Below, one piece after another: positions 6,132 to 36,292 of a DNA stretch of 36,901 nucleotides (the first letter of the stretch is position 1; the number at the start of each line of letters is the position of its first letter). A program made the position numbers and the translations under genes. The notes beneath the pieces are model-generated. The model did no database searches. It saw nothing but the letters and a program-made list of their open reading frames with translations, and was not told where the DNA came from. The DNA is from an uncultured beta proteobacterium (GTDB taxonomy: Bacteria > Pseudomonadota > Gammaproteobacteria > Burkholderiales > Rhodocyclaceae): positions 1 through 36,901 of the forward strand of contig CAIZKA010000147.1 of the NCBI GenBank assembly GCA_903933395.1. The letters run 5' to 3'.

Positions 6132-6145
6132 TTGTTCTGGATCAA
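6132..6145. promoter_or_regulatory. FNR/DNR-like box upstream of sNOR-like operon
   Basis: TTGTTCTGGATCAA, 9/10 match to TTGAT-N4-ATCAA; about 100 nt upstream of the 6245 start. Confidence 0.5.
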
Positions 6146-6244: not shown

Positions 6245-6394
6245 ATGGCGAATAACAACGACGACGATGTTCCATTCATGCAGAAGCTGCTGGACAACCA
6301 CTTCCTGCTCCTGTTCCTCGGGGTCGCGTCTCCCGGAGTCATCTACATCCTGTGGGGAATCATCGACATCATGAGTGTCCCCCTCGCCAAGTAA
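6245..6394 (+). CDS. Small single-TM subunit of heme-copper oxidase-like complex (subunit IIa-like)
   Basis: 49 aa MANNNDDDVPFMQKLLDNHFLLLFLGVASPGVIYILWGIIDIMSVPLAK; one TM helix, immediately upstream of subunit II and I genes. Confidence 0.6.
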   Translation: MANNNDDDVPFMQKLLDNHFLLLFLGVASPGVIYILWGIIDIMSVPLAK

Positions 6395-6421: not shown

Positions 6422-6961
6422 ATGAGTGCAATCCTGCCGCCGTCAGAGCGGTTGTGGTGGAAACAGCCGATCGCCGGTCAAGAATGGGCCTGGATCGGTA
6501 TCGCCTTCGTCTGGGCCATGATCATGTTCATCATGATGGTGTATTGGCACATCAACGGTAAGCAGAACCTTTCCAACGAGGTCTACAAGACCACGACGGA
6601 GATGTTCCAGGCCAAGACGGATGCCTTCGTCAAGGAAAACACCATCCGCACCGAGACCGAACAGAACATCCCGGTGGTCAAGCCCAACGCCAAGGGCGAG
6701 GCCTTCCTGCTGGCGCGGCTGTGGTCCTGGTATCCGATCCTCGAGCTCGAGGCCGGCAAGACCTACAAGATCCACCTCTCGGCGGTCGATTACAACCACG
6801 GTTTCTCGCTGCAGCCGACCAACATCAACATCCAGGTCATCCCCGGCTACGAGCACGTGGTCAAGATGACGCCGACCAAGGCGGGCACCTACGCCATCGT
6901 CTGCAACGAATACTGCGGCATCGGGCACCACACGATGCTTGGCCGTATTTACGTGAAATAA
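6422..6961 (+). CDS. Cytochrome c oxidase subunit II-like protein with CuA site
   Basis: N-terminal TM; CuA ligands in DYNHGFSLQP and CNEYCGIGHHTM (CxxxCxxxHxxM). Confidence 0.9.
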   Translation: MSAILPPSERLWWKQPIAGQEWAWIGIAFVWAMIMFIMMVYWHINGKQNLSNEVYKTTTEMFQAKTDAFVKENTIRTETEQNIPVVKPNAKGEAFLLARLWSWYPILELEAGKTYKIHLSAVDYNHGFSLQPTNINIQVIPGYEHVVKMTPTKAGTYAIVCNEYCGIGHHTMLGRIYVK

Positions 6962-6973
6962 GGGGAACCACAG

Positions 6974-8671
6974 ATGGCAACTACCTACCGTACCTGTCCG
7001 CGCACCGGGCTGCAGTTCGACCTCGACGCCGACAAACTGATGCGCTGGAACGCCGTAGCCGGCGTGCTCTGGCTGCTGGTGGGCGGCATCACCGCCCTCC
7101 TGGTGATCCTGACCCGCTGGCCGGCGATCAAGCTGCTGCCGGCCGACCAGTTCTACCTGATTCTGACTGCCCACGGCATCGACATGCTGATCCTGTGGAT
7201 CATCTTCTTCGAGATGGCGGTGCTCTACTTCGCCTCATCGACCCTGCTGCGCTGCCGGATTGCCACGCCATGGCTGGGATGGGTCCAGTTCTGGCTGATG
7301 GTCGTCGGCGGCATCATGACCAACGTCGCCATCTTCCAGGGCGGCTCGAGCGTGATGTTCACCTCCTACGTGCCGATGCAGGCCGCGCCGCACTTCTACC
7401 TCGGCATCATCCTCTTTGCCGTCGGTGCGCTGATCGGCACCGGCGTGTTCTTCGGCACCCTGGTGGTTGCCAAGCGCGAGAAGACCTATGTCGGCTCGAT
7501 CCCGCTGGTTACTTTCGGCGCCCTGACGGCAGCGATCATCGCGGTGTTTACCATCGCCTCCGGCGCCGCGATCCTGATCCCGACCTTCTTCTGGTCGATG
7601 GGCTGGATCAAGGAAATCGACGCCCAGCTGTATCGCATGGTCTGGTGGGCGCTGGGTCACTCCTCGCAGCAGATCAACGTCGCCGCTCACGTCTCGATCT
7701 GGTATCTGGTCGCCGCCGTGGCCTTCGGCGCCAAGCCGCTGTCCGAGAAAGTCTCGCGCTTCGCCTTCCTGCTCTACATCCTCTTCCTGCAACTGGCCAG
7801 TGCGCACCACCTGCTGTCCGACCCGGGCATGAGCGCGGAGTGGAAGGTGCTGAACACCTCCTACTTCATGTACTTCGCGGTACTGGCCTCGATGATCCAC
7901 GGCTTCACGGTTCCCGGTGCGATCGAAGCGGCACAGCGCAAGAAGGGCTTCAACAACGGCCTGTTCGAGTGGCTGCGCAAGGCACCCTGGGGCAACCCGG
8001 TGTTCTCCGGCATGTTCATCTCGCTGGTCGGCTTCGGCTTCATCGGCGGCATCTCGGGCGTCGTGCTCGGCACCGAGCAGATCAACATGCTGATGCACAA
8101 CACCTTCTACGTCCCGGGCCACTTCCACGCCACGGTCGTCGTCGGCACCACGCTGGCCTTCATGTCGATCACCTACCTGCTGGTGCCGACGCTGTTCCGC
8201 CGCGAAATGCTGTTCCCGAAACTGTGCCAGATCCAGCCCTACCTCTACGGCATCAGCATGATCGTGCTGTCGCTGGTGATGATGGGCGCGGGCACCCTCG
8301 GTGTTTCACGCCGTCACTGGGACATGGCCTTCTCGGGCGCGCCCTTCCAGTACGAGTGGCCGGGTTCCGCCTACCTGATGATGGGTCTCACCGGCATCTT
8401 CGGCGTGATCGCGGTCATCGGCGGCGGCCTCTGGATCGGCCTCGTGGTGCTGTCGCTGCTGTTCGGCAAGAAGCTCGACGGCGGCGCGACCTCCGACAAG
8501 CCGACACCGATCCCCGACCAGACCGTGGCAGCCTCCGCGTCCCATTCCGGCAGCGAAGAGCACGTCGGCGTACCGGGCACGGTGGTGCTGGCCATTACCC
8601 TGCTGGTCTGTTTCGTCCTCTACTACTTCGTGAACTGGAAGTACCTGTCCGAGGTATGGGGTCTCAGCTAA
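6974..8671 (+). CDS. Heme-copper oxidase superfamily subunit I, sNOR-like (probable NO reductase)
   Basis: Polytopic; His ligands LTAHGID, WALGHSSQQINV, ASAHHLLSDPG, HNTFYVPGHFHATV; B-type HxxxY tyrosine replaced by Gln (HSSQQ). Confidence 0.8.
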   Translation: MATTYRTCPRTGLQFDLDADKLMRWNAVAGVLWLLVGGITALLVILTRWPAIKLLPADQFYLILTAHGIDMLILWIIFFEMAVLYFASSTLLRCRIATPWLGWVQFWLMVVGGIMTNVAIFQGGSSVMFTSYVPMQAAPHFYLGIILFAVGALIGTGVFFGTLVVAKREKTYVGSIPLVTFGALTAAIIAVFTIASGAAILIPTFFWSMGWIKEIDAQLYRMVWWALGHSSQQINVAAHVSIWYLVAAVAFGAKPLSEKVSRFAFLLYILFLQLASAHHLLSDPGMSAEWKVLNTSYFMYFAVLASMIHGFTVPGAIEAAQRKKGFNNGLFEWLRKAPWGNPVFSGMFISLVGFGFIGGISGVVLGTEQINMLMHNTFYVPGHFHATVVVGTTLAFMSITYLLVPTLFRREMLFPKLCQIQPYLYGISMIVLSLVMMGAGTLGVSRRHWDMAFSGAPFQYEWPGSAYLMMGLTGIFGVIAVIGGGLWIGLVVLSLLFGKKLDGGATSDKPTPIPDQTVAASASHSGSEEHVGVPGTVVLAITLLVCFVLYYFVNWKYLSEVWGLS

Positions 8672-8793: not shown

Positions 8794-9684
8794 ATGGAAT
8801 CGACGCTAGCCACCAAAAGAACTTCCGGCCTCAGCCTGCGCACCATCGCCGGCGTGTTCAAGCTGCGCATCGGCATCGTCATCACCTTCACCGCCCTGGC
8901 CGGCCTGGCGGTCAGTTCCGGTCCCGGCCTGAGCATCGCGCAACTCGTCACCCTGACCCTGGCCGTGCTGATCTCCTCGGCCAGCGCCGGCGCCTTCAAC
9001 CAGTATTACGAACACGACACCGACCCGCTGATGTCGCGCACGAAGAACCGGCCCTTCGCCACCGGCGAGGTTCAGCACGGCCCGGTCTGGCTGGTGGTCA
9101 TCTTCGGCCTCATGACGGTGTCGGTCATCGCCGCCTGGATGGCGCTGAATGCCTGGTCGGCGCTGTTCACCTTCCTCGGCGCCTTCTTCTACGCCATCGT
9201 CTATACGGTCTGGCTCAAGCGCCGCACCTGGCTCAACATCGTCTTCGGCGGCCTGGCCGGCAGCTGGGCCGTGCTGGCCGGCGCCACTGCCGCCGACCCG
9301 CAGGTCGGCGCCGTACCCCTGGCGCTGGCCTTCGTCCTCTTCCTGTGGACGCCGCCGCACTTCTGGAGCCTGGCCATCGCCTACCGCGACGACTACGCGG
9401 CGGCAGGCGTGCCCATGCTGCCCGTCGTGGTCGGCGACCGGCGTGCCGCCAAGGTGATTTTCGGCAGCACCCTGGCGCTGGTGGCGGCCTCGATGCTGCC
9501 GCTGGCCTTCGGCCTCGGCGCCATCTACTTCGCCGGCGCCGCGACCGGCGGCTTCCTGTTCATCCAGAAGGCATGGCGCCTGGTGCAGAACACCAACCGC
9601 CAGACTGCCATGATCTGCTTCCACGCTTCGCTGGCCCAGTTGACTCTGGTCCTCACGGCAGCCATCATCGACGCCCGCTTCTAG
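8794..9684 (+). CDS. ctaB: Protoheme IX farnesyltransferase (heme O synthase)
   Basis: UbiA-type prenyltransferase; FNQYYEHDTDPLMSRTKNRPFATG and later YRDDYAAAGVPMLPVV motifs. Confidence 0.9.
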   Translation: MESTLATKRTSGLSLRTIAGVFKLRIGIVITFTALAGLAVSSGPGLSIAQLVTLTLAVLISSASAGAFNQYYEHDTDPLMSRTKNRPFATGEVQHGPVWLVVIFGLMTVSVIAAWMALNAWSALFTFLGAFFYAIVYTVWLKRRTWLNIVFGGLAGSWAVLAGATAADPQVGAVPLALAFVLFLWTPPHFWSLAIAYRDDYAAAGVPMLPVVVGDRRAAKVIFGSTLALVAASMLPLAFGLGAIYFAGAATGGFLFIQKAWRLVQNTNRQTAMICFHASLAQLTLVLTAAIIDARF

Positions 9685-9699
9685 CCTGGGCTTCACCCC

Positions 9700-10596
9700 G
9701 TGATTCGTTCCATGTTCCGTGCCGCGCTCGCGGCACTCATGCTTGCCGCTGCGCCGGGAGTCGGCGCCGGCGACACGCCGAAGCCTGCATCCGCGGCGCC
9801 CGCGCCCGGCCTCGTCGCCGTGCCGCAGGGCGACCGCAGCGGCCTGACGCTCCTCACCCTCGACAGCGAGGCCGCCTACAAACGCTCGCAGGATGCAGTC
9901 GGCAAGCCGGTGGGCGACCATGTGCTGCTCGACCGCCAGGGCCGACCCGTGCGCCTGGCCGATTACAAGGGCAAGCCGCTGCTGGTGAATTTCATCTACA
10001 CCGCCTGCTTCCAGGTCTGCCCCACTACCACCAGGAATTTGCAGAAGGCCGTCGAGAATACCGTCGGCATGCTCGGGGCGGATCGTTTCAACGTCGTCAG
10101 CATCGGCTTCAACCAGCCCTTCGATTCTCCGCAGGCGATGAAGGCCTTCGCGACCCAGCACGGCATCCACCTGCCCAACTGGGAATTCCTCAGTCCGGCA
10201 GCCGCCATCGTCGATGAACTGACGCAGAATTTCGGCTTCAGCTATGCCGCCACCACCGCCGGCTTCGACCACGTGAACCAGGTCACCCTGGTCGATGCCG
10301 ACGGCAGGATCGTCCGCCAGATCTATGGCGAGCGCTTCACCGCCCAGGATCTCGCCGAGCCGCTCAAGGCCATGATCACCGGCGCGCCGATTCCGCCGCA
10401 GACCGGCACGCTGGCGGAACTGGTCGATCGCGTAAGGATCATCTGCTCGGTGTATGACCCGGTCACCGGGCGCTACCGCACCAACTACGCGCTCTACTTC
10501 GAAATCGCCGGCTTCATCAGCTTCATGGCCTTCATGGGCTGGGTGGCCTGGAGCTTCATGCGCAAGCGCGGCGGCGAGAAGATTCAACGCGGTTGA
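9700..10596 (+). CDS. SCO1/SenC-family copper chaperone with C-terminal TM helix
   Basis: GTG start; signal peptide; YTACFQVCPTTT (CxxxCP); C-terminal YFEIAGFISFMAFMGWVAWSFM. Confidence 0.85.
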   Translation: MIRSMFRAALAALMLAAAPGVGAGDTPKPASAAPAPGLVAVPQGDRSGLTLLTLDSEAAYKRSQDAVGKPVGDHVLLDRQGRPVRLADYKGKPLLVNFIYTACFQVCPTTTRNLQKAVENTVGMLGADRFNVVSIGFNQPFDSPQAMKAFATQHGIHLPNWEFLSPAAAIVDELTQNFGFSYAATTAGFDHVNQVTLVDADGRIVRQIYGERFTAQDLAEPLKAMITGAPIPPQTGTLAELVDRVRIICSVYDPVTGRYRTNYALYFEIAGFISFMAFMGWVAWSFMRKRGGEKIQRG

Positions 10597-10606
10597 TTCG
10601 AGTCAA
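10593..10606. promoter_or_regulatory. FNR/DNR-like box upstream of cyt b-ferredoxin-MvhD fusion
   Basis: TTGATTCGAGTCAA, 9/10 match to TTGAT-N4-ATCAA; overlaps the SCO stop codon; 76 nt gap to the GTG at 10682. Confidence 0.5.
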
Positions 10607-10681: not shown

Positions 10682-12232
10682 GTGAGCTTGCAAGCTGTAG
10701 CCCAGACCGGCTTCGAACGCATCGAGAACGCCTTCGACGCGTCCTTCGGCGGTGCCGACAATCCGTTGCGCCATCTCGGCGCATTCGGACTGTTCTTCCT
10801 CTGGATCCTGGTTGCCAGCGGCCTGTACCTCTACACCGTGCTCGACACCAGCATCGAAGGCGTCTACAGCTCGATCGGCTGGCTCACGCGCGAACAGTGG
10901 TATCTCGGCGGCGTGCTGCGCAGCCTGCACCGCTACGCCTCCGACGCCTTTGTCATCGTCATGTTCCTGCACCTGCTGCGCGAATGGGCCTGCGGCCGCT
11001 ACCACGGCTTCCGCTTCTACTCCTGGATCACCGGCGTGCCGCTGATCTGGCTGGTCTATGTTTCGGGCATCGGCGGCTACTGGATCGTCTGGGATCGCGT
11101 GGCGCAGTTCTCGGCCGTTGCGACGATGGAACTGCTCGACTGGCTGCCGATTTTCAGCGAGCCGGCGGCGCGCAATTTCCTCGCTCCCTACTCGATCAGC
11201 GACCGCTTCTTCACCGTGCTCGTCTTCATCCACATCGGCGTGCCGCTGATGCTGATCCTCGGCCTCTGGGCCCATGTCAATCGCATCAGCCGGGTCGACT
11301 ACCTGCCGACGCGGCGCGCGATGCTGGCGACCCTGACTGCCTTCCTGCTGCTGGCCGCGATCAAACCGGCAGTAAGCGAACTTCCCGCCGACCTGACCCT
11401 GACACCGGTCGACGTCAGGCTGGACTGGTTCTTCCTTTTCCTCCATCCGCTGACCGACCTCACTTCGCCGGCCGCGATTTGGACGTTGATCTTCGGCGCC
11501 ACGATACTGCTTTTCGCCCTGCCCTTTCTGCCGCATCCGCAGGCACAGCCGATCGCCGTGGTCGATGCCGCCAACTGCAACGGCTGCAGCCGCTGCCACG
11601 TCGACTGCCCCTACGAGGCGATCACCATGGCGCCGCATCCCGACAAGGCGGACCACAGGATCGCCGTCGTCGATGCCGACAACTGCGCCGGCTGCGGCAT
11701 CTGCGCAGGTTCATGCCCGTCGTCGACGCCCTTCCGCAGCCAGGAAAGACTGGTGACCGGCATCGACATGCCGCAGCAGCCGGTCGACCTCCAGCGCCAG
11801 GAACTCGAAGCAAAGCTTGCGCAACTGAAGGGCAGGACCCGGCTCGTCGTCTTCGGTTGCGACCAGGGCGCGAATGTCAGCGCGCTGGCCACGGCGGATA
11901 CCGCCACCCTGAGCCTGATCTGCACCGGCATGCTGCCGCCGTCCTTCGTCGAATACGCACTGCGCAGCGGCGCCGACGGCGTCGTAGTCGCCGGCTGTCG
12001 CGAGGGCGGCTGCGATTTCCGCCTCGGCATGGAATGGACGCGGGAGCGCCTCTCCCGCCAACGCGAACCGCATCTGCGCAACCTCGTCCCCCTCGACCGC
12101 CTGCAACTGGTGCATGCTTCGCGCAGCGAAGGCAGGCAACTCGCCGCGGCGGTCAATGAATTCAGAACCCGACTCGAAACTGATATGACAGCAAGCACCA
12201 GGCCACCCGCCTACTCCCGGAGAAACAGATGA
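10682..12232 (+). CDS. Fusion protein: diheme cytochrome b + 2x[4Fe-4S] ferredoxin + MvhD/hydrogenase iron-sulfur subunit-like domain
   Basis: Cyt b with two Hx13H pairs (LHRYASDAFVIVMFLH; FIHIGVPLMLILGLWAH), LDWFFLFLHP; CNGCSRCHVDCP and CAGCGICAGSCP clusters; MvhD-like FGCDQGAN...ICTGMLPPSFVEYALRSGADGVVVAGCREGGCDFRLG. GTG start inferred. Confidence 0.85.
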   Translation: MSLQAVAQTGFERIENAFDASFGGADNPLRHLGAFGLFFLWILVASGLYLYTVLDTSIEGVYSSIGWLTREQWYLGGVLRSLHRYASDAFVIVMFLHLLREWACGRYHGFRFYSWITGVPLIWLVYVSGIGGYWIVWDRVAQFSAVATMELLDWLPIFSEPAARNFLAPYSISDRFFTVLVFIHIGVPLMLILGLWAHVNRISRVDYLPTRRAMLATLTAFLLLAAIKPAVSELPADLTLTPVDVRLDWFFLFLHPLTDLTSPAAIWTLIFGATILLFALPFLPHPQAQPIAVVDAANCNGCSRCHVDCPYEAITMAPHPDKADHRIAVVDADNCAGCGICAGSCPSSTPFRSQERLVTGIDMPQQPVDLQRQELEAKLAQLKGRTRLVVFGCDQGANVSALATADTATLSLICTGMLPPSFVEYALRSGADGVVVAGCREGGCDFRLGMEWTRERLSRQREPHLRNLVPLDRLQLVHASRSEGRQLAAAVNEFRTRLETDMTASTRPPAYSRRNR

Positions 12233-12346: not shown

Positions 12347-12847
12347 ATGCCTAAGCCCGCCGCCATCGTCGGTCAGATCATCCTCTACGGCGCCTTTGCC
12401 GCCTTCATCGGCTATTTCTCGACCGCGCCGACCTACAAGCAGATCGGCGACGACGTCGCGCTGATCAAGCTGTCGATGAGCCACCTCGGCGGCCGCGAGT
12501 GCCGCAAGCGCACACCCGAGGAACTGGCGAAAATGCCGCCCAACATGCGCGCGCCGCTGGATTGCCCGCGGGGCCGCTCCGACATCAAGCTGGTGCTGGA
12601 ACTCGACGGCAAGCCGATGTTCGAGACCGTGATGCATCCCACGGGACTGTCCGGCGACGGCGTCTCCACGGTCTACAAGCGCTTTGAGGTGAAGGCCGGC
12701 ACCTACAAGCTGGCGGTGAAGATGAACGACAACCTGATCCTCAACACCGACTTCAATTTCGTCAAGGAAGCGCAGATCACGCTGAAACCGGCACAGGTGC
12801 TGGTGATCGATTTCAACCCGGACAAGGGCGGGCTGTTCTTCCAGTAG
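12347..12847 (+). CDS. Unknown membrane-anchored periplasmic protein
   Basis: MPKPAAIVGQIILYGAFAAFIGYFSTAPTYKQIGDDVALIKLSMSH...; one N-terminal TM; lies between the two cyt b fusions on the same strand. Confidence 0.7.
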   Translation: MPKPAAIVGQIILYGAFAAFIGYFSTAPTYKQIGDDVALIKLSMSHLGGRECRKRTPEELAKMPPNMRAPLDCPRGRSDIKLVLELDGKPMFETVMHPTGLSGDGVSTVYKRFEVKAGTYKLAVKMNDNLILNTDFNFVKEAQITLKPAQVLVIDFNPDKGGLFFQ

Positions 12848-13005: not shown

Positions 13006-14916
13006 ATGCTGACCCTCCTGCAAAAAATCGTGCGCTGGTTCTTCATGCGCGCCGAAAACCTGTTCAACGTCGCCTTCGGCGAGAAGCTGAACCCTTTCTA
13101 CCATCTCGGCACCATCAGCTTCTGGCAGTTCTGGCTCTTGATCGGCACCGGCATCTACCTCTACATCTTCGCCGATACCGCCGTGCATGACGCCTACGAA
13201 TCGGTGGAGCGCATCACCCACGACCAGTGGTGGGCCGGCGGCATCATGCGCAGCATCCACCGCTACGCCACCGACGGCATGATCCTGACCATGCTGCTGC
13301 ACATGCTGCGGCACTTCGCCTACGACCGTTACCGCGGCTTCCGCTGGTTCTCCTGGGCCACCGGCATCGCCCTGATCTGGCTGGTGTATATCTCGGGCCT
13401 GAACGGCTTCATGCTGGTGTGGGACAAGCTGGCGCAGTTCGTCGTGGTCGCCACCGCCGAATGGTTCGATGCGCTGCCGATGTTCAACGGCACCCTGATC
13501 CGCAACTTCATCTACCAGGAAAACGTCACCAGCCGGCTGTTCACCCTGCTCGCCTTCATCCACCTCGGCGCACCGCTGATCGCCGGCGTCATCGCCTGGA
13601 TACATGTGCAGCGCGTGCCGCGCGCCCACGTCAATCCGCCGCGGTCGATCGCGATCGCCTTCACATTGATGTTCGTCGTGCTCGCCCTGGTCAAGCCGGT
13701 GGTGAGTCAGGGCGGCGAAGCCGACATGCTGGTGGTGCCGACCAATATCGCCTTTGACTGGTTCCAGATGCCGGTGCTGGCGCTGGTCTATGTCGTCAAT
13801 CCGCTCTACCTCTGGTTCGGCATCGTCGGCCTGTCGCTGCTGCTGTTCCTTGCTCCCTGGCTGCCGCCCAAGCGCATGGGTGCCGGCAAGGCCGAAGCCC
13901 TGGTGACCTTCCACCCCGACCACCGGGCCGTCGCCATCCGCTTCGACGAAACCCTGCTCGATGCCGGCCTGCGCCAGGACATCAACCTGCCCTACGAGTG
14001 CCGCAACGGCGGCTGCGGCAATTGCAAATGCACGGTGCTCTCCGGCAATGTGGACCCCGGCCTTTATCAACCGAGCGCGCTGTCGGCAGAGGAACTCGCC
14101 GCCGGCAAGGTGCTGCTGTGCTGCGCTACGGCGCTGGGCGATGTCGAGATCGAATATGAATCATCCGCGGCGCCCGCCGCGATCCGGCAATACACCGCGC
14201 GCGTGCTTCGTATGGAAAAGCTGACCCACGACGTGATGCGCGTCATGCTCAAGCTACCCGAAGGACAGCAGATTCCGTTCAAGGCCGGGCAGTACATCAA
14301 CATCGTGCTCGATGACGGTCAGCACCGCGCCTTCTCCTTCGCCAATCCGCCGCACCAGCCGGACCTGATCGAACTGCAGATCCGCCTGATGCCGAATGGC
14401 CGCTTCACCACGCACGTCTTCGAGCAGATGAAGGTCGGCGATACCGTCAGGTTCGAAGGCCCGCTGGGCGATTTCTCCCTGCGCGAATCCGAGCGCCCCA
14501 TCGTCTTCGTCGCCGGCGCCACGGGCTTCGCCCCGGTCAAGAGCATGGTCGAGGACGCCTTCCATCGCGGCCTCAAGCGGCCCATCTACCTCTACTGGGG
14601 CGTGCGCCGGCTGGCCGACCTCTACCTGCCCGACCTGCCGCAAAGCTGGGCGAAGGAGCACGAGAACTTCCATTTCGTCCCGGTCCTTTCGGATGCCGCA
14701 CCCGAGGACAACTGGCAGGGCCGCACCGGCCTGGTGCACGAAGCCATCCTCGAGGATTTCCCCGACCTCAGGGGCAAGGAGATTTACGCCTGCGGCTCGG
14801 TGAAGATGGTCGAGGCGATCTTCCCCTCGCTGAAGAACCAGGGCGCCGAGGAAGGCATGTGCTTCTCCGATGCCTTCACCGTCTCGGCGCGCTCGATGGC
14901 CTTCCAGCCGAAGTAG
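13006..14916 (+). CDS. Fusion protein: diheme cytochrome b + plant-type [2Fe-2S] ferredoxin + FAD/NAD(P)H reductase
   Basis: Cyt b Hx13H pairs (IHRYATDGMILTMLLH; FIHLGAPLIAGVIAWIH), FDWF; CRNGGCGNCKC...LLCCA 2Fe-2S motif; RAFSFANPP (FAD), GATGFAPVKSM and ACGSVKMVEA (NAD(P)H). Confidence 0.88.
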   Translation: MLTLLQKIVRWFFMRAENLFNVAFGEKLNPFYHLGTISFWQFWLLIGTGIYLYIFADTAVHDAYESVERITHDQWWAGGIMRSIHRYATDGMILTMLLHMLRHFAYDRYRGFRWFSWATGIALIWLVYISGLNGFMLVWDKLAQFVVVATAEWFDALPMFNGTLIRNFIYQENVTSRLFTLLAFIHLGAPLIAGVIAWIHVQRVPRAHVNPPRSIAIAFTLMFVVLALVKPVVSQGGEADMLVVPTNIAFDWFQMPVLALVYVVNPLYLWFGIVGLSLLLFLAPWLPPKRMGAGKAEALVTFHPDHRAVAIRFDETLLDAGLRQDINLPYECRNGGCGNCKCTVLSGNVDPGLYQPSALSAEELAAGKVLLCCATALGDVEIEYESSAAPAAIRQYTARVLRMEKLTHDVMRVMLKLPEGQQIPFKAGQYINIVLDDGQHRAFSFANPPHQPDLIELQIRLMPNGRFTTHVFEQMKVGDTVRFEGPLGDFSLRESERPIVFVAGATGFAPVKSMVEDAFHRGLKRPIYLYWGVRRLADLYLPDLPQSWAKEHENFHFVPVLSDAAPEDNWQGRTGLVHEAILEDFPDLRGKEIYACGSVKMVEAIFPSLKNQGAEEGMCFSDAFTVSARSMAFQPK

Positions 14917-30110: not shown

Positions 30111-31010
30111 ATGAAAACGAAAATTGGCTGTTTCGCCGCATTCGGAGTCCTGCTTGGCTTTGGCTCTCAGCTTGCGCATGCTGCACCCGACTGGAGCCAG
30201 GTTGAAAAGCGCGATATTCCGGTCTTCCACCCCGGTGTCGTATCGCACGAGTGGATCATGAAAAAGTCTAGCCATAGCGGACGGACCGGTCTCACCAAGG
30301 GCGAAAGCTGCATCGCCTGCCACGAAGGCAAAAACGGTTTCGATATCGATTTGAAGAAGTTGGCCAGCAAGGAGTTGGAGCCGGTGGGCGCCCCGAAGAC
30401 CATGATCTTCCCGGTTACCGTGCAGTCCGTCTTCGACGATGCCAATCTGTATATCCGCCTGACCTTCAAGGCGCCGGCCGATGCGGCTGCCGAGGCATCC
30501 CGGGAAGATACATCGCCCAAGCACGAAGTGAAGGCGGCCATCATGCTGGGCAGCCCGCAGATCGAACACGTCACACAACACGGCTGCTGGCTGTCTTGCC
30601 ATAGTGATGTCCGCTCGATGCCGGGCGCCGATCCGAAGAAAAAGAAATACGTAGAACACGGCGACTTGGCTGGCGGTGCCTTCTACGACTACATCCAGTG
30701 GAAAAGCGGCGAAGCCGGCAAGGGTGCAACGCAGGTCGACGGCCATGTCACCAACGAGCGGGTAAACAAGGGCGGCAAGTCTCTGGTCAAGGCCGAGGGC
30801 GACGTCAAAGACGGCGTCTATACCGTCACATTCACGCGCAAGCTCAGCGGCAACAATGCCGATGGCGACCTAGCGCTCGCTGCAGGCCAGACCATCGCGT
30901 TCGGTATCGCGATTCACACCGACAAGACAGTGTGGCGTTTCCACCATGTCTCCATGGGTTATACCTTGGGGCTGCGCGCACCAGGCGACATCAAGGCGAT
31001 CAAGCAGTAA
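30111..31010 (+). CDS. Ethylbenzene dehydrogenase-related c-type cytochrome (cytochrome c-552/DMSO reductase-like heme-binding domain)
   Basis: Signal peptide; CIACHEGK and CWLSCHSD heme sites; VTVQSVFDDANLYIRLTFKA and AFGIAIHTDKTVWRFHHVSMGYTLGL. Confidence 0.75.
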   Translation: MKTKIGCFAAFGVLLGFGSQLAHAAPDWSQVEKRDIPVFHPGVVSHEWIMKKSSHSGRTGLTKGESCIACHEGKNGFDIDLKKLASKELEPVGAPKTMIFPVTVQSVFDDANLYIRLTFKAPADAAAEASREDTSPKHEVKAAIMLGSPQIEHVTQHGCWLSCHSDVRSMPGADPKKKKYVEHGDLAGGAFYDYIQWKSGEAGKGATQVDGHVTNERVNKGGKSLVKAEGDVKDGVYTVTFTRKLSGNNADGDLALAAGQTIAFGIAIHTDKTVWRFHHVSMGYTLGLRAPGDIKAIKQ

Positions 31011-32435: not shown

Positions 32436-34013
32436 TCAGTGGCTGGTGCCTTCCGAGCGCGTGATCTTGTTGTAGAGGTTGTACTTGCCCACCGGCTTGT
32501 CCATCGGGATGCGCTTGAGCTCCTTGAAGGTCGCGGCATCGAACACGATCAGCGCGCCGCCGTCGGCCTTGCGTTCCCACAGGCTGGCCAGGACGTACTT
32601 GCCGTCGCGGGTGAACTCGACGTGCGCCAGGGTCTTGCCCGGATCGGTCCTGATCTCGGCGACTTTTTCCAGCGTGCGCTTGTCGATCACCTGCAGCGTG
32701 TCCTTGCCTTTCGACATCATCGAATCGGTCCAGGCATAGGGCGTGTTTTCGTGGCTGCGCATGAAGAAGCCGGGGCCCAGCGTCGGGATGGTCTTGATCG
32801 TGCTCCAGTCCTTCATGTCGATCACCGTGATCAGGCCTTCCTTGAGGTTGGGCGTGGCCATCACCATGCGGTCCTGCGCGCCCTGCGGCGGGCGGTAGTT
32901 CCAGGTGATGCCGGAGCCGAGGTGCGGCATGCCCGGCAGCGTCAGGTCGGCGATCTTTTTCCTCACGTCGAGATGCACCACCTGGCCCTTGCCCGCCTCG
33001 CGGCTCGAACCCATCAGTTCCGAATAGTCCTGGGTGAAGAAGAAGTCGTCGAGCGGTTCGCTGAGGAAGGTGCGGCGCGCGTTGAGGAAGCCGGGAATGA
33101 AGCTGCCTTCCTTGTACTTGAAGTCGTGGACCATTCCGATGGGAATGTCGTCGGCCTTGGGGTTGTAGCTGATCTCCCAGACCTCGGGCACGTCTTTCAG
33201 AGCGGCGACGAAGCTCTGCCGCGGCGCGGCGTCATATACGGCAGACACGCGCGAGCTTTCCTTGCGATCCTTGTCCCGGACCTCATGCACCTTGAGCAGG
33301 TTGAGATCGGCGTCGAGCAGCACCAGCGTGTGCGGCAGGTAGTTGGCCACGGCGAGGTACTTGCCGTCGCCGGAGACGGCGACATTGCGCGTGTTGATGC
33401 CGGCGCGGATCTCGGCCACCACCTTGAGGTTCCAGATGTCGAACTTGGTGATCCAGCCATCGCGCGAGGCGAAGAAAACATAGCGCCCGTCCGGCGTGAA
33501 TTTCGGCCCGCCGTGCAGGGCGTAGCGGCTGGGGAAGCGGTGGATGGGCTCCAGCTTGTCGCCGTCGAGCACCGTGACATGGTGGTCGCCGGTCTCGACC
33601 ACGATGAACAGATTCATCATGTCCACGCCTTTGAAGATCCCGTCGGGTTGGGCCGGCAGGCTCCCCGGCGCGAAGTTGACGATGCGCGAGGCCTTGATGT
33701 CGGCTTCCGTGAGAGTCGGCGCCGGCGACACGGCGGTGTAGATGTAGTCCGCGAGCGCCGCAATCTCTTCCTTGTTCATGCGGTCGGCAAAGCCCAGCAT
33801 CTGCGTCGCAGCGCGCCCTTCGGCTATGGTCTTGACTGCTTCCGGCTTCCTCAGCCGCGCGAGGCTCTCCGGCAGCAGCGCGGGTCCGGTGATACCCAGC
33901 CGGCCGGGGCCATGGCAGACGACGCAATGCTGCTGGTAGAGGGCAGGAGCGTCGGCCGCCAGCAGCGGCATCGTGTTGGCCAACAAGCATGCCAGCGCAA
34001 GAATCTTCTTCAT
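32436..34013 (-). CDS. nirN: Cytochrome cd1-family protein, NirN-like (dihydro-heme d1 dehydrogenase)
   Basis: Signal peptide, CVVCH class I cytochrome c domain, eight-bladed d1-type propeller (TPDGRYVFFASRDGWITKFDIWNLKVVAEIRAGINTRNVAVSGDGKYLAVANY), C terminus KPVGKYNLYNKITRSEGTSH; ATGA overlap with nirJ. Confidence 0.75.
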   Translation of the reverse strand: MKKILALACLLANTMPLLAADAPALYQQHCVVCHGPGRLGITGPALLPESLARLRKPEAVKTIAEGRAATQMLGFADRMNKEEIAALADYIYTAVSPAPTLTEADIKASRIVNFAPGSLPAQPDGIFKGVDMMNLFIVVETGDHHVTVLDGDKLEPIHRFPSRYALHGGPKFTPDGRYVFFASRDGWITKFDIWNLKVVAEIRAGINTRNVAVSGDGKYLAVANYLPHTLVLLDADLNLLKVHEVRDKDRKESSRVSAVYDAAPRQSFVAALKDVPEVWEISYNPKADDIPIGMVHDFKYKEGSFIPGFLNARRTFLSEPLDDFFFTQDYSELMGSSREAGKGQVVHLDVRKKIADLTLPGMPHLGSGITWNYRPPQGAQDRMVMATPNLKEGLITVIDMKDWSTIKTIPTLGPGFFMRSHENTPYAWTDSMMSKGKDTLQVIDKRTLEKVAEIRTDPGKTLAHVEFTRDGKYVLASLWERKADGGALIVFDAATFKELKRIPMDKPVGKYNLYNKITRSEGTSH

Positions 34014-35152
34014 GCGATTCCTATCTCTTCGTCGCTCAGATAACAGCCCGGATCTTCCGACCAGGGATCGCCGCTCGTCTGCTGGGCGCGCACGCGCGTG
34101 TTGCCGCCGCAGATGTCGAAATGGATGCAGGCGCCGCAGCGCCCGCCGACCTTGCGCGGCTGCGCCTTGAGGCCGGCCATCAGCGGGTCGGACGTATCCA
34201 TCCAGATGTCGCCGAAGCTGCGCTCGCGCACATTGCCCAGATTGTGATGCCACCACATGGTGTCGGGATGGACGTTGCCGAGGTTGTCGATGTTGGCGAC
34301 ATTGACGCCGCTGGAATTGCCGCCCCACTGCGCGAGCTTCCTGCGGATGTGCTCGACTTTCTCCGGAAAACGCCGCTGCAGCCACATGAGCAGATAGACG
34401 CCGTCGGCATCGTTGTTGCCGGTGGTGAATTCCTTGACCAGCCCGCGCTCCTGATAGTCCCAGCAGGTGTCGAACAGCAGGTCCATGGCGCTCCTGGTCA
34501 TCTGGTGCAGGGCGTCGTCCTTGCGATTCTTGTTGCCGCGCCCGGCATAGTTCAGGTGCGAGAAATAGAAGCGGTCGATGCCCTCGTCCTCGACCAGCCT
34601 GAGCAGGCCGGGTAAATCCTGAAAGTTGTCCTGCGTCATCGTGTAACGCACGCCGACTTTCAGGCCCGCCTCGCGGCAAAGGCGGATGCCGGCCAGCGAA
34701 AGATCGAAGGCGCCCGCCATGCGGCGGAACTTGTCGTGAGTCGCACCGAGGCCGTCGAGGCTGACGCCGACGTAGTCGTAGCCTATCTCCCTGATGCGCT
34801 CGAACATCGGCTCGTCGATCAGCGTGCCGTTGGAGGACAGCGCGGTAAAAAACCCCATCTGCTTCGAACGCGCCGAGATCTCGAATATGTCCGGCCGCAG
34901 CAAGGGCTCGCCGCCGGAGAGGATCAACGCCGGCACGCGGAAAGCCTTGAGTTCGTCCATGACGCGGAATATTTCGCTCGTGCTCAACTCGCCGGCAAAG
35001 TCCTTGTCGGCGGAGATGGAGTAGCAGTGCTTGCAGGTCAGGTTGCAGCGCCGGATCAGGTTCCAGATGACAACCGGGCCCGGCGGCTTGCGCGTCGGTC
35101 CGACGGGCGAAGGCTGAGCGATTTCCTGCATGAACTGGGAGATTCTGAACAT
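34010..35152 (-). CDS. nirJ: Heme d1 biosynthesis radical SAM protein NirJ
   Basis: WNLIRRCNLTCKHCYSISADKDF radical SAM CxxxCxxC; C-terminal CGACIHFDICGGNTRVRA auxiliary cluster motif. Confidence 0.9.
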   Translation of the reverse strand: MFRISQFMQEIAQPSPVGPTRKPPGPVVIWNLIRRCNLTCKHCYSISADKDFAGELSTSEIFRVMDELKAFRVPALILSGGEPLLRPDIFEISARSKQMGFFTALSSNGTLIDEPMFERIREIGYDYVGVSLDGLGATHDKFRRMAGAFDLSLAGIRLCREAGLKVGVRYTMTQDNFQDLPGLLRLVEDEGIDRFYFSHLNYAGRGNKNRKDDALHQMTRSAMDLLFDTCWDYQERGLVKEFTTGNNDADGVYLLMWLQRRFPEKVEHIRRKLAQWGGNSSGVNVANIDNLGNVHPDTMWWHHNLGNVRERSFGDIWMDTSDPLMAGLKAQPRKVGGRCGACIHFDICGGNTRVRAQQTSGDPWSEDPGCYLSDEEIGIA

Positions 35153-35186
35153 GGCGACATTAGGCGCACAGGTAGTGCCGGGCGCT

Positions 35187-35200
35187 TTGATACCCGTCAA
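35187..35200. promoter_or_regulatory. FNR/DNR-like box upstream of nirJ
   Basis: TTGATACCCGTCAA, 9/10 match to TTGAT-N4-ATCAA; 35 nt upstream of nirJ start, in divergent intergenic region. Confidence 0.5.
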
Positions 35201-35288
35201 GCCGCGGGCAGGAAATTCTATGCCCGATCAGGGAATATTTCCCGCGCTCAAGGTACTATTTCCTTCCGCCAAACCCGAGCCGGAAGCA

Positions 35289-35792
35289 ATGAATTCCATA
35301 GCCAACACTCTCTTGCGCGTCACTGTGCTGCTCGCTTTTGCTCTCCTGTCGTGTTTGGCTCCTGCCGCAGAACCGACGCTGGGCATGAACGAGCAGGCTA
35401 TCCACGACGCGGCGCGCATGGGCAAGCGGCAGGATGTCGAAATCATTCTCAAGAGTTCGCCGCAGGCGCGCGATGCGCGCACCCCGCTGGGCATGACGCC
35501 GCTGCACTACGCGGCGATGAACGAGGACAGCGGCCCGCTTCAGGCACTGCTGGCCGCCGGCGCCGCGGTCAATGCCCGCGACGGCGAAGGTCGCACGCCG
35601 CTGCACATGGCGGCATTTTCGACGCGCACCGCGAACGGCAAGTTGCTGCTGCAGGCCGGCGCCGACCCGACACTGAAGACCGATGCCGGCCGCGACGTGC
35701 TGAGCATGGCGCGCAAGGTCCGCGCCGACGAACTGGCCGGCATCATCTCGCTGTGGATCCTCAAGGACTGCAAGCCGGGCAAGCCGTGCTGA
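35289..35792 (+). CDS. Ankyrin-repeat periplasmic protein
   Basis: Signal peptide; ankyrin repeats GMTPLHYAAMNEDSGPLQALLAAGAAVNARDGEGRTPLHMAAF... Confidence 0.85.
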   Translation: MNSIANTLLRVTVLLAFALLSCLAPAAEPTLGMNEQAIHDAARMGKRQDVEIILKSSPQARDARTPLGMTPLHYAAMNEDSGPLQALLAAGAAVNARDGEGRTPLHMAAFSTRTANGKLLLQAGADPTLKTDAGRDVLSMARKVRADELAGIISLWILKDCKPGKPC

Positions 35793-36292
35793 GGGCTCTG
35801 CGGGCATCGCTGCTGATCGCCGCCGCACTTGCCGGCGTCTGCGCCGCAGAAGAAAACCTGCCCCCCGTTGTGGTCTATGCACCCAGCCCGTGCCTGGCCT
35901 GCATCGACTGGGCCGATCACCTGCGCAAGCACGGCTTCGAGGTCAGCATCGAGGAAACCGCCGAAGCCAGCATGCCGCGCCTGAAGCGCTGGCTCAATGT
36001 GCCGTCCGGCCTCGAATCGGTGCACACGGCGAAGGTCGCCGGCTATTTCATCGAGGGCCACGTCCCGGCCGAAGACATCAAGCTGCTGCTCAAGGAAAAG
36101 CCGCGCGCCCGCGGCCTGGCCGTACCGGGCCTCCCGCGCGGCGCGCCCGGACGGGAAGTCTCCAACCCCTTCTGTGAAACCGCCTGCACCATCCTCGACA
36201 ACGCCAGCCAGGAACGCGAAGTCCGGCGCGAGGCATACAACACGCTGCTGGTCGGGCCTGACGGCAAGACGTCCGTCTTTGCCCGTCACTGA
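35786..36292 (+). CDS. DUF411-family periplasmic metal-binding-like protein
   Basis: GTG start overlapping previous stop; signal peptide; VVVYAPSPCLACIDWADHLRKHGFEVSI...VPSGLESVHTAKVAGYFIEGHVPAEDIKLLLKEKPRARGLAVPGLP. Confidence 0.85.
   Translation: MLRALRASLLIAAALAGVCAAEENLPPVVVYAPSPCLACIDWADHLRKHGFEVSIEETAEASMPRLKRWLNVPSGLESVHTAKVAGYFIEGHVPAEDIKLLLKEKPRARGLAVPGLPRGAPGREVSNPFCETACTILDNASQEREVRREAYNTLLVGPDGKTSVFARH

Follow-up and report, generated by a model that had tools for sequence, protein, structure and literature searches.

The closest described counterparts of the protein analysed here are the cytochrome b of complex III and the cytochrome b6f complex on the one hand and the iron-sulfur subunits of heterodisulfide reductase-hydrogenase complexes on the other. 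In Hdr complexes, a ferredoxin-MvhD module forms the electron path that connects the core with a docking enzyme. Modules of both kinds are joined in one polypeptide of 516 aa, encoded by an open frame without stop at positions 10682-12232 (+) of contig CAIZKA010000147.1 from an uncultured member of the Rhodocyclaceae, of which a stretch of 36,901 nucleotides was analysed (the window). With the cytochrome b of complex III and b6f, this protein (the fusion) has in common the six-helix fold, two His pairs and the position of the Qo motif, whereas it lacks helices G and H, shows [LFI]DWF in place of PEWY, carries C-terminal Fe-S modules and is encoded in a cluster without Rieske protein or cytochrome c1. 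With the C-terminus of HdrA2 it shares the order of dicluster ferredoxin followed by FlpD, and with MvhD (5odc) the fold; unlike the heterodisulfide reductase-hydrogenase proteins, it is built on a membrane cytochrome b and comes without flavin domain, hydrogenase or HdrBC. The Accumulibacter 'novel quinol reductase' (cited in PMC4930944) probably corresponds to a paralogue encoded downstream, from which the fusion differs in carrying ferredoxin and FlpD rather than FAD and NAD domains. The domain combination itself has already been listed once: RME88945.1 appears in a table of PMC8756737 without comment as a single protein in which a cytochrome b6, a DMSOR_beta-like and an FlpD domain are combined; it is placed there with cytochrome-domain homologues and may hold a further cytochrome domain. 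The link of the fusion to an NO reductase, described below, appears undescribed, as no account of it was found in a targeted literature search whose coverage did not extend to the main eNOR paper (Murali 2024).

An AGGAAA-like ribosome site stands ahead of the GTG start codon of the fusion gene, at which tblastn alignments with relatives begin as well; a longer frame from ATG 10454 would run into the SCO1 gene. The cytochrome b module (residues about 1-284; 10682..11533, +) was assigned by Pfam (Cytochrome_B at residues 32-199, E 2.9e-13), conservation, fold match and charge pattern, and comprises six TM helices, His83/97/184/198 and the sequence LDWF at 247-250. It is followed by a pair of [4Fe-4S] motifs, CNGCSRCHVDCP and CAGCGICAGSCP (11552..11728, +; residues about 291-349), with eight conserved Cys and matches to Pfam Fer4 families (Fer4-type dicluster at residues 291-347, E 3e-10 to 8e-10), and by an FlpD/MvhD-like domain (residues about 387-501; 11840..12184, +), which was recognized by Pfam FlpD (residues 407-499, E 5.3e-16, cut-off passed) and by phmmer and Foldseek matches to MvhD chains. 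Among 71 aligned fusion sequences, His83-x13-His97 and His184-x13-His198 are invariant, and the eight ferredoxin Cys as well as Cys393, 414, 439 and 444 of the FlpD region are kept in 69-71. At the position of the Qo motif, Trp249 is found in 71/71 and Asp248 in 68/71 sequences, and the resulting family pattern [LFI]DWF is degenerate with respect to the PEWY motif of cytochrome bc-type complexes. These domains, ligands and fold matches bear out the first-pass annotation, made from the letters alone, in its proposal of a quinone-type cytochrome b, a dicluster ferredoxin and an MvhD-like domain within one polypeptide, and also in its reading of four heme ligands, two Hx13H pairs and LDWF; its description of the cytochrome b part as an N-terminal half does not hold, since six helices, E and F included, are present. 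The MvhD-like domain, which had been called cysteine-rich, stands as a domain (Pfam FlpD), with its Cys content now corrected to four conserved Cys, three of them aligning with MvhD Cys.

The HdrA2 model matches fusion residues 292-499 at model positions 572-769 of 777, that is, at its C-terminus only, and no flavin or FAD domain was detected in the fusion by either Pfam or the HdrA2 model comparison. A flavin-based bifurcating device in the Hdr sense, as the earlier suggestion of bifurcation might be taken, would fit the likeness of the Fe-S half to the HdrA2 C-terminus, yet it is highly improbable given the missing FAD domain, the absence of HdrB/C, any other Hdr gene or a flavoprotein of the Hdr kind among the cluster genes, and the finding that G013, a genome lacking the fusion, has the HdrA2-like gene of this genus as well.

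When the AlphaFold model of the fusion (pLDDT 80.3, pTM 0.76) was compared with the PDB, about 285 columns aligned with the cytochrome b of complex III, and MvhD (5odc_D) was matched with a TM score of 0.72 in Foldseek. The BC and DE loops of the cytochrome b part contain 2 and 4 Lys/Arg, respectively, while loops AB, CD and EF are acidic. Model and charge pattern together indicate six helices with the N- and C-termini inside, so that the Fe-S modules most likely lie in the cytoplasm.

The fusion gene is part of a conserved cluster (all genes on the + strand), which opens with a 49-aa single-TM peptide regarded as a small subunit (MANNNDDDVPFMQKLLDNHF...; 6245..6394), recognized by translation and conservation in relatives; a similar small TM peptide belongs to the ba3-type NOR clusters of Bacillus (PMC3475470). 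Next come heme-copper subunit II with CuA ligands read from the sequence (H...CNEYCGIGHHTM; Pfam COX2, NCBIfam CoxB; 6422..6961), heme-copper subunit I of the B-family and eNOR type with GHSSQQ (Pfam COX1, E 1.5e-65; 6974..8671), heme O synthase (CtaB/CyoE; TIGR01473, 263 bits at a cut-off of 210; 8794..9684) and a SCO1/SenC copper-delivery protein (Pfam SCO1-SenC, E 1.9e-15; 9700..10596). The fusion gene is then followed by dufS, encoding 166 aa (12347..12847), and by the paralogue, in which [2Fe-2S], FAD and NAD(P) domains are joined to a cytochrome b part that shares about 42% identity with the fusion across residues 3-286 (Pfam; BenC-like; 13006..14916). This order is kept in most of the related loci fetched, gammaproteobacterial loci lacking the last gene, and no Rieske or c-type cytochrome gene was found among the cluster genes.

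The product of dufS, whose gene lies next to the fusion in nearly all loci, consists of one TM helix and a beta-sandwich with two invariant Cys (AlphaFold pLDDT 88.5); it belongs to no Pfam family, and a PDB fold search returned no convincing match. In genome G210 (L114:2887-4935), dufS is joined in frame to the C-terminus of the fusion to give a protein of 682 aa, which is the best evidence for DufS as a physical partner. On the Defluviimonas plasmid, a hemerythrin-family gene lies immediately downstream of dufS (L106:15517-15921). In many relatives, dufS is also adjoined or closely neighboured by a gene for another protein of the heme-copper subunit I kind, 450-480 aa long and divergent in sequence (about 25% identity; L110:11490-12869, L114:6100-7458, L117:3124-4557), which is absent from the window and in two of the loci is accompanied by heme A synthase (CtaA).

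The closest PDB relatives of subunit I are ba3 oxidases (E 1e-40), which places it in the B-family, and the position of the cross-linked Tyr is taken by Gln (GHSSQQ) in every relative in which the region is intact. PMC8756737 names Gln at this position as the hallmark of eNOR, and a further feature shared with the eNOR-type B-family NO reductases is the cupredoxin (CuA) subunit II encoded beside subunit I. From these residues and the gene context, we infer that the adjacent enzyme is an NO reductase of the eNOR type. An identity as sNOR or bNOR was ruled out, as these have Asn at the Tyr position. Alternatively, the heme-copper enzyme might be an oxygen reductase working at low O2, with the fusion serving oxygen respiration. 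The B-family fold of subunit I is compatible with such a role, and a case has been made for the sNOR of Nitrosomonas as a high-affinity oxidase (PMC6967387), but the replacement of the cross-linking Tyr and the strong association with cytochrome cd1 genes make it improbable. The same Gln is present in a Thermus thermophilus plasmid cluster and in subunit I of Thermomicrobium roseum, and neither eNOR-like locus has the fusion nearby, so that the enzyme class in itself does not depend on this partner. On the Thermus plasmid (L108, NZ_LR027520.1), the eNOR-like subunits are annotated as cytochrome c oxidase and lie within a nitrite reductase/Rrf2/DUF542 cluster.

In 41 genomes (that of the window and 40 around it), the fusion was full-length or nearly so in 24 and in two pieces in 1 more, and a scan of species genomes yielded 74 fusion loci, with hosts including Sulfuritalea-like Rhodocyclales, Accumulibacter, 'Ca. 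Nitricoxidireducens', gammaproteobacterial MAGs and a complete Dechloromonas chromosome. It also occurs on a complete plasmid of Defluviimonas (Alphaproteobacteria), where it is annotated as 'cytochrome b N-terminal domain-containing protein'. A frameshift or assembly error joining separate genes, the caveat attached to the original proposal, is thereby ruled out, the fusion being intact in more than 70 loci from many independent genomes, complete replicons among them. Tandem pairs of fusion genes are found in one family (G540, G603, G628, G679), and every His and Cys ligand is retained in both copies in the two genomes examined (L110:7581-10997 and L111). Such paired cytochrome b genes, with the NAD(P)-linked paralogue as the second member elsewhere, suggest heterodimers. 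The tree computed here is usable unrooted only, as the two rows intended as a complex III outgroup are wrong-frame ORFs.

The distribution of the fusion follows that of the eNOR-type gene. In the first set of 41 genomes, both were present in 24, the fusion alone in 1, the eNOR-type gene alone in 0 and neither in 16 (Fisher p 1.6e-10); a class sample of 369 genomes gave 33 with both, 1 with eNOR only and 2 with the fusion only (p 1.5e-43), and a phylum sample of 399 genomes gave 30, 1 and 4, respectively (p 1.1e-39), with counts and p values that ignore phylogeny. All 13 genomes that lack a subunit I gene at the fusion locus carry an eNOR-type gene elsewhere, and in both eNOR-only genomes the contig breaks off close to the gene, on the side where the fusion would come next. 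In several genomes, the two genes are located on separate contigs or at a distance of 15-20 kb, and their association therefore goes beyond physical neighbourhood. The fusion is thus a near-obligate genetic partner of the eNOR-type NO reductase.

The denitrification context proposed by the first-pass annotation is upheld by the presence of PF02239, a cytochrome cd1 domain that takes in NirS and its relatives, in 36/40 fusion carriers as opposed to 2/40 non-carriers; the conserved gene cluster and the eNOR partner had been missed. An FNR/DNR-like box, TTGTTCTGGATCAA (6132..6145, +), with one mismatch to TTGATN4ATCAA, lies 113 bp upstream of the first cluster gene, and a second, TTGATTCGAGTCAA (10593..10606, +), was found by motif search upstream of the fusion gene. 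Upstream of the small ORF, such boxes occur in 30 of 53 loci where shuffled sequences would give 0.23, and upstream of the fusion in 49 of 83 (0.35 expected), the loci in both counts being related and hence not independent. Fusion-dufS pairs unlinked to the cluster adjoin a cd1 nitrite reductase gene in L124 and nap-type genes in L126, and the neighbours of these two loci name no partner for the FlpD domain. Elsewhere in the window, the 747-aa product of 32436-34679 (-) combines a c-type cytochrome with a cd1 heme domain; it is longer than the majority of open frames among the best cd1 matches and has no NCBIfam match at E 1e-10. The window further contains genes for an ethylbenzene dehydrogenase-type heme domain protein (30111-31010, +) and for a 518-aa frame with a C-terminal DUF411 domain (34736-36292, +).

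Taken together, the fusion is probably a dedicated membrane electron-transfer partner of the eNOR-type (B-family, CuA-containing) NO reductase. Given the role of its Fe-S module in Hdr complexes, the simplest transfer of function would make the fusion an electron relay that connects the b hemes with a cytoplasmic partner and ends at quinone or at the NO reductase. Judged by fold and charge pattern, the cofactor chain would run from the [2Fe-2S] cluster of FlpD via the two [4Fe-4S] clusters to heme bH and heme bL, leading from the cytoplasm to the periplasmic side, where a Qo-like pocket is predicted. With less certainty, a cytoplasmic donor that docks at FlpD may supply the electrons, which would pass through the hemes and then reduce either quinone or the NO reductase directly, giving NO reduction a path besides complex III. 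Where the NAD(P)-linked paralogue is present, as in the Rhodocyclales and some other carriers, it might deliver electrons to the same point, perhaps by forming a heterodimer with the fusion. Cytochrome c1 was detected in 40/43 fusion carriers tested; hence the normal route to the CuA site exists in most of them, and the fusion would provide an additional route rather than a replacement, a role as complex III substitute being disfavoured. If a low-potential donor passed its electrons on to quinone without coupling, energy would be wasted.

The strong conservation of the Qo-like motif (W249 71/71, D248 68/71) can also be read in the opposite direction, with quinol oxidized on the periplasmic side and electrons passing inward through the b hemes, as in NarI, to the Fe-S/FlpD part and a cytoplasmic acceptor, and likewise through the paralogue to NAD(P)+. 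The Accumulibacter quinol reductase has been proposed to re-oxidise quinones in anaerobic operation of the TCA cycle (PMC4930944), in keeping with such an inward quinol dehydrogenase. We regard it as unlikely, as electron transfer from quinol to NAD+ or ferredoxin is uphill, a periplasmic quinol site must in addition build membrane potential, and the tie to the NO reductase and cd1 genes would be left unexplained. The same motif would be needed if quinol oxidation were bifurcated, one electron going to the CuA of the NO reductase in Rieske's place and the other through the b hemes to the cytoplasmic Fe-S clusters of the fusion or to NAD(P)+ in the paralogue. A cluster without Rieske or c-type cytochrome gene, the CuA subunit encoded alongside, the near-obligate pairing of fusion and eNOR, and the ample driving force of the NO/N2O couple all accord with this scheme, which is nonetheless quite unlikely, since the Glu of PEWY is replaced by Asp and the first residue of the motif varies. 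In its full form, a Rieske-free quinone-bifurcating complex in which NO reduction at the eNOR-type CuA drives the formation of low-potential reductant via both fusion and paralogue must be considered a long shot.

The preferred reading, a membrane electron-transfer partner dedicated to the eNOR-type enzyme, bears on a little-known step, namely how eNOR-type NO reductases, from which the greenhouse gas N2O arises, are supplied with electrons. The fusion, which nearly always occurs together with eNOR and does so in many pseudomonadotal families, among them that of Accumulibacter from wastewater plants, offers a direct experimental handle on this step. The fusion also represents an Fe-S module of the heterodisulfide reductase type re-employed on a respiratory cytochrome b outside the methanogens.
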